A stretch of 64,000 bases of DNA from Collinsella sp. AK_207A (lineage in GTDB: Bacteria; Actinomycetota; Coriobacteriia; Coriobacteriales; Coriobacteriaceae), in assembly GCF_902501965.1 (NCBI RefSeq), contig NZ_CABWID010000018.1, forward strand, positions 1 through 64,000, given 5' to 3'. The notes below the pieces were generated by a model. The model had not been told where the DNA came from and did not search any database. It was given only the letters and a program-made list of their open reading frames with translations. Every line of letters starts with the position of its first letter. Within the stretch, counting starts at the first letter, position 1. The position numbers were made by a program, and so were the translations under genes. Shown here one piece after another: positions 30,787 to 35,005 of the stretch.

Positions 30787-30942
30787 GGAGGGACCACGTT
30801 CCTCTCGAAGGACGGATGTGAAGGGTTTCTACCCATGAAGCAAGCAGTTAACCTACCATGAGCAAGGTAGGCTATGGTACCCAAAGCGGTTGCACATAGG
30901 AAACTCTACACAAGACATCGTTCCCGAAAGGACCTCTTGCAC

Positions 30943-31914
30943 ATGAAGCTCACCGACGCGCTCGACTACGCGAACTCCTTCTACATTCCCGAGCTCATCT
31001 TTTCCGGCGGCTACGACTCCATCGAGTCCGAGCGCCAGCGCGGCGAGGACGCCCTGAAGACGCTCGTGGACGAATGGAACGCCAACGAGAACCCGAGCTT
31101 TGGCTTCGACCTCATCCGCGAACTCGCGGACCGCAACCGCGGCATCTGCGACCATATCGGCGAGGCACGCCTGCGCAACCTATCCTCCCCCATGCTCGCC
31201 CGCAGCCTCTCCGACGCCGACATGTGCGCGGCAATCGGCAAGCTCCAGGGCCGCGGAGCGGCGACCGTCATGCGCGAGGTGCGCGGGGACGCCAACGCCT
31301 ACGCCGTGGCCTGGGTGCGCAAGCCCATCAAGGGCAAGGTGCTCGGCATCGACATCGAGACCACCGGGCGCGCGCCCGAGCGCGGCTACATCATCAACGT
31401 GGGCTGGGAGCTCATGGAGATGACAAGCGACGCGGTGCCCACGGACGGCGAGGCCGTGTACTGCGGCCTGCCGGAGGAACCGTACCGCGAGACGGGCGTG
31501 CCCCTGGCAGACATTCACCACATCACCTGGGACATGGTGGCGGGCAAGACGCCCTTCCGCGAGGATAAGGCCCTGCAGAAGCGGCTGCTCACCCTGATGA
31601 AGAAGTATCCCATCATGGCGCACAACGCCGCCTTCGAGGATTCGTGGTTCCGCCTGCACCTGGACGGCTACGCCGAGGCGCGCCGTGCGGGCAAGATCAT
31701 CGTGATCGACTCGCGCCACATCTGCCGCTCGCTCGATGGCGAGGTCCGCACGCTGCCGCGCGAGAGCGCGCCCGCCGCGCTGGAGAACTGGGCAAGGCGT
31801 CGCGGCACCTTGGTCGAGGGCGAGGCCGAGCGTCACCTGGGCCTGGACGACACGGACCTTATGCTCAAGACCGTGCAGGCCGAGATGAATCAGAAAAGCA
31901 TGTTTGCCAAGTAG
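30943..31914 (+). CDS. DEDDh 3'-5' exonuclease
   Basis: 323 residues. An N-terminal region of about 115 residues without clear family is followed by an RNase T/DnaQ-type exonuclease domain: Exo I GIDIETTGRAP, Exo II IMAHNAAFEDSWF, Exo III HLGLDDTDLML with the DEDDh arrangement. It acts on 3' ends of DNA or RNA. AAAGGA lies about ten bases before ATG 30943. It is a single plus-strand gene ending in an intrinsic terminator; its role in repair or RNA turnover is unknown. Confidence 0.82.
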   Translation: MKLTDALDYANSFYIPELIFSGGYDSIESERQRGEDALKTLVDEWNANENPSFGFDLIRELADRNRGICDHIGEARLRNLSSPMLARSLSDADMCAAIGKLQGRGAATVMREVRGDANAYAVAWVRKPIKGKVLGIDIETTGRAPERGYIINVGWELMEMTSDAVPTDGEAVYCGLPEEPYRETGVPLADIHHITWDMVAGKTPFREDKALQKRLLTLMKKYPIMAHNAAFEDSWFRLHLDGYAEARRAGKIIVIDSRHICRSLDGEVRTLPRESAPAALENWARRRGTLVEGEAERHLGLDDTDLMLKTVQAEMNQKSMFAK

Positions 31915-31925
31915 GCAACGGGCGG

Positions 31926-31973
31926 CGAGCCGGGAGCGATCCGCCCGGCCGTGCCCGGCTCTCGTGGGTTTTT
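31926..31973 (+). terminator. intrinsic terminator after the exonuclease gene
   Basis: CGAGCCGGG (31926-31934) pairs with CCCGGCTCTCG (31954-31964) with a two-base bulge, and five T residues follow at 31969-31973. It starts 11 bases after the stop codon, on the correct strand. Confidence 0.75.
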
Positions 31974-32130
31974 CCGAGTAGTGAACGGGGCTTCTCCGTC
32001 CAAGCAGTGGTCGCCGCCATTTCCCCAGCTCAGGGGCCATCGGTTTATCCGAAAAATGAACACCGCGTTCACAACTCGGATAAACCGGAGCCGGGAGCGT
32101 TCACTACTCCCGATTTTCAACGACAACCGC
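31974..32130. repeat. palindromic repeat R1 flanking the orphan nuclease-like gene
   Basis: Three nested complementary pairs: GAGTAGTGAAC 31976-31986 with 32099-32109; CGGTTTATCCGA 32041-32052 with 32076-32087; and TGAAC/GTTCA inside. A 23-base stretch, 32065-32087, recurs exactly at 33444-33466 in R2. Both copies are followed by TTCAACGACAA. No gene lies in this part of the 272-base gap. Confidence 0.8.
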
Positions 32131-32186
32131 AAACCCGCCGAGCGTGCTCGGTGCCCACGCACTTTGCACCACCATCGCCGCCACCC

Positions 32187-33158
32187 CTACGCCATGCGCC
32201 GAAGCACGAATCGCCTCAGCTCCTCTTGCCTCAGCTCGAATTCATCGGGTAACGCCGCCGGCGAGATACCCATCTTGCGCCGAATGCACAGCATGAAGCG
32301 CCCAAAGACAGCACGGTTGAAGAACCCCCATCGACGTATCGCCATCACACCATGCCCCATCGCCCGGAGCGCTCGTTCTCGCTCATCATCTTCCACGGCG
32401 CGCATCTCGTCATCGTGGAAGAATCCGTGGTACTCGATATCCAGATGAATTCGCGGGAGATAGACATCGCAATAGAAGCAACTGCGCGCCGTAAGATGCC
32501 TGGCCCGGGCATTGACCTCGATTCTATAATCCATCTCCAGCCCCCGAATGCCAAGCCCGCCCTCACGCTTCGGCATCACCAGCATCATGACGAATGCCGT
32601 CTCCATCGGAGAGCGCGCTCCGTCACGTACGTAACGGATAGCGCGTCGAGCAAGTTCCACCCCATGACGCCGACCCGTTTTCTCAAAGTACCGAGCAAGC
32701 TCAGCCGTCGAAGTGAGAGCCGGACGCTCTCTGTAACCATCGGTTTCTTCGAACGGCAACTCATATGCTCCGCAGAGCTCGTAGTAGTACTCAACGAGCT
32801 CCCGAAAGGAAAGGTCGCGCGCAGCATTGAGCGCGGTCTGGCGAATATCGGTCACACAGATTCCGCCCTGCAACGGAATGATCGATCCGGCGGGCATCGT
32901 TCCCCGAAGCACATGGCAGATGACGCCATCGGAAAGACGGCGCTCCCCAGCCTCGGAAACAAGGACGTGCACGCGCTCCAAAAGCTCTGGCGGCACTCCA
33001 TACCGCGCCAGCTTGATACGCGCATCCTGCACCAGCGCCGTATCGCATGGACCCGTTCGAAGTCGTTTCGAGCGAGGCGGATACGACTGCTCGGAGACCG
33101 GACGATACGGCGCACGATGGTACAGTCGCGCGGTGCTATGTGCTAAGACAATGCTCAT
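32187..33158 (-). CDS. orphan protein with DUF559/Vsr-like nuclease domain
   Basis: 323 residues. The N-terminal two thirds have no clear family but contain RHGVELARRAIRYVRDGARS, typical of DUF559-associated proteins. The C-terminal third looks like a PD-(D/E)XK fold: Glu in SPMETAF, Asp in FYCDVYLP, Glu in LDIEYHGFFH, then the basic HGVMAIRRWGFF. The family is common in Coriobacteriia as stand-alone genes of unknown role. The ribosome site is not evident at 33158. Base composition is more AT-rich than the neighbours, and palindromic repeats R1 and R2 flank it; transfer as a unit is possible. Confidence 0.6.
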   Translation of the reverse strand: MSIVLAHSTARLYHRAPYRPVSEQSYPPRSKRLRTGPCDTALVQDARIKLARYGVPPELLERVHVLVSEAGERRLSDGVICHVLRGTMPAGSIIPLQGGICVTDIRQTALNAARDLSFRELVEYYYELCGAYELPFEETDGYRERPALTSTAELARYFEKTGRRHGVELARRAIRYVRDGARSPMETAFVMMLVMPKREGGLGIRGLEMDYRIEVNARARHLTARSCFYCDVYLPRIHLDIEYHGFFHDDEMRAVEDDERERALRAMGHGVMAIRRWGFFNRAVFGRFMLCIRRKMGISPAALPDEFELRQEELRRFVLRRMA

Positions 33159-33619
33159 ACGGCCAGTATTTCAAAGCACTGGACCCGGCAAAGCGTTTTT
33201 TCAGAATCAGAACCGCGATATGCGGTAATCGCTCCCCCTCATCTGACGGCCCAGTCAGAATTGTGGCAGATTCACCGGAATCCCCGTCTAAATCGTGTTA
33301 GATTTCAACCCTCCCCTGTAGCGCTCCGATGCATGCAGCGGCTCTATACATTGAAGGCACTCGGGTACGGGATAGACAGGTTCACCTGTGTTTTTGGGAG
33401 CTGTGAACGCTGCAAGACAACCGAATCCCGAGTTGTGAACGCTGCGTTCACAACTCGGATAAACCGATGAACTCTGACCGGCGGGTTTACAAGAGCGCCG
33501 GCCGCGGTGAACAGCCGGCGTTCACAACTCGTGTATTTCAACGACAATCCTGCCGCGAGCTTGCACGCGGAGTCGCAGAGCCGGATGGCGATGCACCCGA
33601 TCACGCCCGGCCGCGGCCT
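33159..33619. repeat. AT-richer gap containing palindromic repeat R2
   Basis: 461 bases without a gene. R2 occupies about 33381-33551: CCGAGTTGTGAAC 33428-33440 pairs perfectly with 33446-33458, and the 23-base stretch 33444-33466 equals 32065-32087 in R1. A further GTTCACAACTC lies at 33520-33530, followed by the shared TTCAACGACAA. The part nearest the nuclease-like gene (33159-33380) must hold its promoter, but I see no good -35/-10 pair. Confidence 0.75.
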
Positions 33620-34930
33620 CTACCGTGCCCTGGCGCGGCGCCAGCGCACGGCCGTGAGCACGAGGCCCACCGCTGCCACGCAGGCGAGCACGTGGAACAC
33701 GAACGTGAACCCCGCCATGAAGACCTCCGGACGCCCCTCGACGAAATGCGTCACGGTGCGGCCCATCTCCGCGCTCATCCGTCCGTACAGCAACGCGGAG
33801 CACCCCGAAATGCCGATCGCCATGCCCGCATAGCGCGCAAGGCCGGACACGCTCCCGGCAAAACCCAGGGCCTCGAGCGGCGCGGAATCCATGAAGAGCG
33901 CGTTGTTGGGCGACTGGAAGATCGAGGTCCCACAGCTCATGAGGCCAACGCAGAGCACGATCTGGACAACCGGGCTCTCGATGCCGAACGTGCCCACCAG
34001 CAACAGACCGCACACGTACACCGCGAGCCCCACCATGGTGGGAACCTCGCACCCCACGCGGTCGGACACCGTACCGGAAACAGGCCCCACGACCGCGTTG
34101 GTCACCGGCAGGGCCAGAAACAGCAGGCCCGAGACCGTTGCGGTAAACCCATGCGCATCCTGGAAGTAGAACGGCAAGACGAACTCCGAGGCGCCGATGC
34201 CCGCGAACACGATGAACATGGTCAGGAAGTTCAGCCGAAACTCCGGGCTGCCAAAGCACAGGCGCGCGGAGCCGAGCATGGAAAGGCCCGCCCGGTGCCC
34301 ATCGCGCATCGGATGCACATGGGGTAGCGTGCGCAGCCCGACCAGGAACGAGACCACGCCCACCGGCACGTTGATGAGGAAGATGCCCTCCCAGACCCAG
34401 CTGGAAACGATGATGCCGCCGAACACCGGGCCCGCCATCATGCCGAGCGCCACCGCGGTCGAGAGAAATCCCATGGCGCGTCCGCGCTCCCGCGCTGGGA
34501 ACGCCTCGGTGATGATACCCATGTTGTTGGCCATGGCGAGCGCGCACCCCACGCCCTGCACCGCACGCGCAACCACGAGCATGGGCAGCGAGGAGGAAAG
34601 TCCGCAGAGCAGCGAGCCCAACGTGAAGCCGACCACACCCGCCTGAAAAACGTACACCTTGCCGAGCTTATCGCCCAGACGGCCAAAGGGCAGCAGCGCG
34701 ATGCACGTGGCAACCAGGTAGATCGAGGAGACCCATTGGATCTCGTCGCCCGCGCCCAGCTCCTTCTGCATAACGGGCAGCGCCACCGTGACGATGCTCG
34801 AATCCAGGCAGACCATGAAGGTCATAACGAGCACCGTGACGAGAATCGCCCACTTATTGTACGTGCGCCCGAGGGGCGCACCCGTCTCCGCGCGCCCAAC
34901 CTGCTTCTCGGAACCATGCTCGATAGCCAT
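33620..34930 (-). CDS. MFS drug/solute transporter (DHA2-like)
   Basis: 436 residues with about 12 membrane helices. Motif A appears as FGRLGDKLGKV after TM2, and the N-terminal helix carries VCLDSSIVTVALPVMQ, typical of the DHA2 proton antiporters, although those usually have 14 helices. It likely exports a drug or metabolite. ATG 34930 has GGAGAT upstream. It is the last gene of a minus-strand run starting with the Wzm-like permease; with no other clue the substrate stays open, and polysaccharide-related export is only one possibility. Confidence 0.8.
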   Translation of the reverse strand: MAIEHGSEKQVGRAETGAPLGRTYNKWAILVTVLVMTFMVCLDSSIVTVALPVMQKELGAGDEIQWVSSIYLVATCIALLPFGRLGDKLGKVYVFQAGVVGFTLGSLLCGLSSSLPMLVVARAVQGVGCALAMANNMGIITEAFPARERGRAMGFLSTAVALGMMAGPVFGGIIVSSWVWEGIFLINVPVGVVSFLVGLRTLPHVHPMRDGHRAGLSMLGSARLCFGSPEFRLNFLTMFIVFAGIGASEFVLPFYFQDAHGFTATVSGLLFLALPVTNAVVGPVSGTVSDRVGCEVPTMVGLAVYVCGLLLVGTFGIESPVVQIVLCVGLMSCGTSIFQSPNNALFMDSAPLEALGFAGSVSGLARYAGMAIGISGCSALLYGRMSAEMGRTVTHFVEGRPEVFMAGFTFVFHVLACVAAVGLVLTAVRWRRARAR

Positions 34931-35005
34931 ATCAATCTCCACGAAAAAGGGCGGAGCACGTCGCAGTGCCCCGCCGCATCGATCGCTCAACCCGTTAATC
35001 GTACA

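Follow-up and report, generated by a model that had tools for sequence, protein, structure and literature searches.

The palindromes that lie dispersed in bacterial genomes have so far been tied to Y1 (RAYT) or DDE enzymes. In Collinsella sp. AK_207A, two copies of a palindromic repeat, R1 and R2, flank a gene for a nuclease-like protein. What does this nuclease do between the two palindromes, and does it act on them? We analysed a window of 64,000 nucleotides from this genome and compared the locus with those of its relatives. An earlier note on the window had likened the arrangement to REP palindromes around a RAYT transposase gene. It proposed that the nuclease may cut or mobilise the palindromes, or that the block is a transferred cassette.

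The repeat pair and the gene between its copies

R1 and R2 share an exact 23-base segment, GCGTTCACAACTCGGATAAACCG, at positions 32065-32087 and 33444-33466, and a tail, TTTCAACGACAA, at 32115-32126 and 33536-33547, as had been observed. Both repeats are complete copies of a single element, 166 bp long and asymmetric, whose inverted arms are nested. The element has four arms, spaced 32/18/75 bp; R1 reads 75/18/32, and therefore the two whole elements are oppositely oriented. The earlier note had placed the repeats in direct orientation. The 23-base segment and the tail do appear direct, because the element is itself made of inverted arms, but the elements as wholes are inverted. R1 (31960-32125, minus strand, 132.6 bits) lies 62 bp downstream of the nuclease gene and on the gene's own strand, while R2 (33382-33547, plus strand, 139.2 bits) lies 224 bp upstream of it on the opposite strand. 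The outer arms of R1 are GTTCACTACTCGG (31974-31986, minus strand) and CGTTCACTACTCCC (32098-32111, plus strand), and its inner palindrome spans 32041-32087 with arms at 32041-32061 and 32067-32087. R2 has outer arms at 33396-33410 (minus strand, reading GGGAGCTGTGAACGC on the plus strand) and 33518-33532 (GCGTTCACAACTCGT, plus strand). The 15-bp arms of its inner palindrome (33428-33458) are 100% complementary, and a degenerate copy of the internal core, CTGACCGGCGGGTTTAC, lies at 33470-33490 on the plus strand.

The palindrome extends beyond the nuclease block. The arm GTTCACWACTCGG occurs 14 times in the window's own genome (2.12 Mb in 24 contigs), where eight full copies of the element align nearly gapless over 166 bp. 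The six full copies besides R1 and R2 lie on contigs C24, C5, C14 and C1, with two on C18. At least one fragment is present as well, at C5:22558, and probably another on C2. The copies examined adjoin ordinary genes, namely adhE-like, prfC-like and uvrB (named by eye from sequence). Within this genome, pairing in the element (76.3%) has no covariation excess over shuffled alignments (75.4%).

A single ORF lies between R1 and R2, as the earlier note had it. It encodes 323 amino acids on the minus strand at 32187-33158 (stop codon 32187-32189), and it is described here from the ORF list, a 13-homologue alignment and an AlphaFold2 model. GC content is 55-60% in the region of the gene and about 62-69% around it, in agreement with the remark that the gene is more AT-rich. 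The model has a mean pLDDT of 88.2. Foldseek by itself returned no match to it at E<=0.001, and the fold assignment depends on a second look with VIA-align. By VIA-align, residues 181-299 (32262-32618, minus strand) resemble the homing endonuclease I-Bth0305I (3r3p; Z 9.0, rmsd 2.6, 95 aligned), the putative endonuclease 3hrl (Z 8.1) and Vsr (1cw0; Z 7.6). On the predicted structure, this C-terminal nuclease domain is of the Vsr/I-Bth0305I fold, and the suggestion of a restriction-nuclease-like fold in place of a transposase is upheld. Residues E186, D231, H248 and D257 are invariant across the 13 aligned sequences. We take them to be the E, D, H, D catalytic set for which EDxHD is named, and judged from the alignment the window protein appears to fit the EDxHD / Vsr-like nucleases. 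The N-terminal domain (residues 2-178; 32625-33155, minus strand) is presumed to bind DNA. Its best match is Rv2827c (1zel), a weak one with Z 4.6 for the whole model and 4.9 for the domain alone, where the next row (Z 4.6) is an unrelated enzyme, and the DNA-binding role is a guess. The window protein has no match in Pfam (neither DUF559 nor Y1_Tnp, PF01797), while 11 of the 13 aligned homologues match Pfam DUF559 (PF04480) at E<=1, with a best E of 1.5e-6. NCBIfam gave no match to the window protein, PHROGs gave nothing useful, and a query of viral_contigs found no relative.

Elements beside homologues and across genomes

A homologue of the nuclease is present in 43/43 Collinsella genomes searched and, class-wide, in 225/396 sampled genomes at E<=1e-25. 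When 20 of these loci (up to 20 kb, from 16 other genomes) were compared with themselves, most had a repeat pair hugging the gene, different in sequence each time. At 55, the R1/R2 bracket scores higher than any of 157 distant control ORFs from the same loci, which reach 38 at most, and 11 of 21 homologue loci score above all 157. In a test of left against right flanks, 17/36 true pairs score at least 39, against 16/1260 mismatched pairs. At least 12 of these 16 mismatched pairs reach 113 or above, along 120-600 bp, and we read these as a reflection of shared neighbour genes; where the window is involved, the shared gene is an exonuclease gene. In a class-wide set, mainly Eggerthellaceae-like, scores of at least 50 are found in 14/28 true flank pairs and in 2/756 mismatched ones. 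A palindrome score of at least 50 within 500 bp on either side is found at 17/34 loci, compared with 38/911 single control windows. About half of the homologues are without a bracketing pair at these thresholds (19/36 loci at 39, 14/28 loci at 50), and bracketing is weak in the C. aerofaciens group. Many genomes of this group (L053-L074) have a palindrome with the arm CATATGAACATGCGCTCATATAA about 570-600 bp past the homologue.

The gene had been called an orphan, which it is not: four paralogues are found at other places in the genome, with 26-31% identity across the matched part, and two of the four are bracketed by their own, differing elements. Paralogue C15b (L046 4417-5610) sits between direct copies, 145 bp each, of another element whose ends are 26 bp long, and a solo copy of that element is found on C14 (L044 about 745-890). 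C10b has a palindrome on each side, while C15a and C10a have a palindrome on a single flank. Similarly, the three homologues of genome G023 have three different bracketing repeats. Because the elements differ between paralogues in both genomes, the arm seems to go with the gene rather than with the genome.

Arm sequences tend to be particular to a homologue or paralogue, and the arms vary by species with their complementarity kept. The arm found 14 times in the window's genome occurs in 0/42 other Collinsella genomes, though all of them carry a homologue, so the palindrome is far from equally common elsewhere. The expectation that relatives would carry the same palindrome holds for its architecture and fails for its sequence, which differs by species and by paralogue. 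In G025, the local arm has 60 matches, most of them paired at a distance of 143 bp, which makes about 29 elements; it has 0 in 42 other genomes. The arm of G042 has 22 matches (about 12 elements) and 0-3 in other genomes, which is the control level of the reversed pattern. That of G106 has 19 matches, compared with 0-4 in 29 other genomes, and extraction yielded 12 elements. Two cognate element copies flank the nuclease gene in each of these three genomes. Element length is 166 bp here, exactly 166 bp in G025 and about 100-120 bp in G106. With homologues beside their own palindromes and with dispersal in G042, G025 and G106, the proposed link between nuclease and palindrome and its likeness to REP/RAYT are supported. 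Among 16 distinct copies in G025, about six lie in unrelated flanks, and no target-site duplication is evident by eye at the 16. Among the G025 copies (L226-L249), about ten of the 16 share a longer surround, CCAAC..element..CAAGTTGG, which perhaps reflects insertion into another repeat.

The elements of different genomes form one family. A covariance model built solely from the eight own-genome copies finds these again, together with elements in 18/42 other Collinsella genomes (E<=0.01), and its best match in another genome is in G042 (3e-15). Across 67 homologue loci, counted after two antisense duplicate rows had been removed, 11/14 distinct places at E<=0.001 are no more than 700 bp from the nuclease gene, and two of the 11 come from the Eggerthellaceae-like set (L144, L152). 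Among 23 elements from 11 genomes the arms differ, for example GTGAACGC, TATGCATAG, AAGTGCATCG and TTATGAACGA. Across these genomes pairing is 81.8% Watson-Crick, against 52.1% when shuffled, and two-sided covariation is 0.293 against 0.067, with 0/500 shuffles as high; alignment A3 was fitted to the structure, so the pairing is biased upward and is support rather than proof. The test used 23 of the 55 rows of A3, as antisense, partial and near-duplicate rows were dropped and one of the eight own copies was kept. In their loop, Eggerthellaceae-like elements (e.g. L142-L155, L194) repeatedly show a core close to (g)cGACCWGGnGTTTyTc. The core CGACCTGG is exact in 9/12 copies of G106, and Collinsella elements have related yet looser versions. 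The Eggerthellaceae-like core motif scores above the 95% control level on 10/66 Collinsella flanks, a modest transfer. The loop core contains CCWGG, which is the sequence context of Vsr repair enzymes; this is possibly a coincidence. Arm similarity correlates weakly with protein similarity (Mantel rho 0.10, p 0.08, n 33), and arms seem to turn over faster than proteins.

Gene residence, proposed element spread and rival explanations

In most Collinsella loci compared, the nuclease gene comes after the exonuclease gene and points the same way. The window has it the other way round, and 30874-34990 holds the exonuclease gene (plus strand), the nuclease gene (minus) and an MFS gene (minus). G023 (L082 6460-10658) has exonuclease, MFS and nuclease genes in a single direction, and by gene order the nuclease-MFS segment of the window seems inverted relative to it. 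From its place beside the exonuclease gene in most Collinsella loci compared, the nuclease gene is taken to be an old resident, and the idea of a transferred cassette is not sustained.

A site of element gain or loss is seen in birA. In G106, an Eggerthellaceae-like genome, a biotin-ligase (BirA-like) ORF (L220 942-2006) contains an in-frame element. The same loop was compared in 18 related genomes. Similarly built elements occupy it in G106, G165, G257 and G273, and it is short in at least three others, namely G219 and two congeners of G106, G214 and G091. Several further genomes have longer loops. With the loop filled in some relatives and short in others, the site is occupied or empty between close relatives. 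Between the birA elements of G106 and G165, both arms change together (TATGCACGATT vs TATGAACGATT). This may reflect a single insertion followed by losses, or several insertions.

Which enzyme might move the element? Among the 14 genomes searched for Y1_Tnp (PF01797), eight have it, the window's own genome among them, and six do not (G025, G042, G023, G017, G106 and G374). G025 and G106 (one contig each) and G042 are rich in elements yet without it. A RAYT acting in trans was considered and is unlikely, as PF01797 is missing from these three element-rich genomes. The window's own genome has one Y1 transposase-like gene (G000:C16:12714-13007), on a contig from which the window's arms are absent. 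In G025, arm matches occur almost exclusively at element spacing, and the sole gene seen between copies is the nuclease; the other close copy pair inspected there encloses no sizeable ORF. As Y1_Tnp is absent from element-rich genomes and this other pair holds no sizeable ORF, the nuclease is the best candidate for the mover, by association only. We know of no Vsr-type nuclease that performs strand transfer.

Discrete in extent, the element is built of nested inverted arms and an internal core. One copy stands on each side of the gene, and further copies are scattered in the genome. We consider it rather probable that the nuclease gene, with its Vsr/EDxHD-type domain and an N-terminal domain that putatively binds DNA, belongs to a REP/RAYT-like family in which each gene has a palindromic element of its own as partner, and that the enzyme acts on the element. 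The protein would bind its cognate element via the arms, and the nuclease domain would cut or nick it, possibly in hairpin form. Through repair or copying from other copies, the element could then be duplicated into new sites, and the copies within a genome could be kept alike. The nuclease would serve its element as RAYT is thought to serve REPs, without a Y1 transposase. The gene itself would be mostly stationary and vertically inherited while the element spreads.

The elements might instead be ordinary non-autonomous MITEs that are moved by some other transposase, with the nuclease gene as cargo between two copies. Inverted ends, dispersed copies and a lack of coding content would suit such elements. 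Nonetheless, one protein family is bracketed by differing elements across genomes and across the paralogues of one genome, and control genes are not. The lack of Y1_Tnp in G025, G106 and G042 and the empty second pair of G025 also tell against the cargo explanation, and we regard it as unlikely. We give a similarly low probability to a role of the protein in defence or as a selfish nuclease (restriction or AbiEi-like), with the palindromes as its operators or self-recognition sites, which it would not move. This would agree with the DUF559/REase-type Pfam matches among homologues, with a weak PADLOC match of the window protein to a methyl-directed restriction enzyme (E 0.019) and with the weak likeness of the N-terminal domain to Rv2827c, and gene-adjacent palindromes can be operators. 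It accounts poorly for discrete 100-166 bp units that lie far from any homologue beside unrelated genes, one of them within the birA coding sequence, and operators need neither a conserved internal core nor two nested stems.

The asymmetric fold of the element, with two nested stems, a recurring unpaired core and pairing that is kept across species, would suit an RNA that is transcribed, folds and acts together with the nuclease, whether as guide, scaffold or inhibitor. The copy inside a coding frame is presumably transcribed. Still, the window has no Rfam match, inverted repeats are equally useful as DNA, and copies occur in both orientations relative to the neighbouring gene, so that we hold an RNA role to be quite improbable. 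Intergenic palindromes are common, and the association could in principle be a search effect or an alignment artefact. About 4% of control 500-bp windows hold a strong palindrome, and structure was used in fitting the alignment across genomes. Three separate bracketing controls and three independent genome-wide pattern searches contradict this, and we give chance hardly any weight.

In these gut bacteria related to Collinsella, the nuclease genes lie between palindromes particular to each gene, which several genomes also carry at scattered sites, and this has the look of a so far undescribed route by which a short stretch of DNA spreads. More tentatively, at a little under an even chance in our judgement, the Coriobacteriia may harbour a new class of mobile DNA system, in which a Vsr/EDxHD nuclease propagates its own palindromic element and has repeatedly switched recognition specificity. 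A third, unrelated type of enzyme in the job so far held by Y1 and DDE enzymes would mean that intragenomic repeats, selfish or domesticated, had evolved convergently. The cognate recognition sequence would be on display in each gene's flanks, and many natural nuclease-target pairs could be read from genomes. Because each gene carries its element alongside, recognition would be predictable and testable at once. A function would also be assigned to a large family of uncharacterised proteins, that of the 225 sampled genomes.

Comparison with known systems

MITEs of DDE insertion sequences are likewise short, non-coding and dispersed, with terminal inverted repeats. Here, no parent insertion sequence with these ends and no target-site duplication were seen, and the only bracketed gene found is the nuclease. 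The protein side recalls Vsr, the EDxHD homing endonuclease I-Bth0305I and DUF559 proteins in the predicted fold of residues 181-299 and in the invariant E, D, H and D, and most homologues match DUF559. The window protein differs from them in an additional N-terminal domain of about 180 residues and in its bracketing elements, neither of which was found described in the literature searched. In the open-licence PMC literature, we found nothing on DUF559/Vsr-type nucleases with palindromic repeats, nor on such elements in Eggerthella or Collinsella. Rickettsia palindromic elements are mobile palindromic units that can sit in frame inside genes, and the G106 copy in birA is placed like them. To our knowledge they have no partner nuclease.

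In layout there is a likeness to REP/RAYT, where a pair of inverted palindromic elements encloses a gene, further copies are dispersed in the same genome, and the palindromes are lineage-specific and have a GT(A/G)G head, as given for the RAYT side in PMC2817692. REP palindromes are short, 20-40 bp in PMC3733652, whereas the elements described here measure 100-166 bp and combine nested stems with a core. REPs occur in hundreds of copies and these elements in tens. RAYT is a Y1/HUH enzyme, IS200/IS605-like; the enzyme here is predicted to have the Vsr/EDxHD fold.
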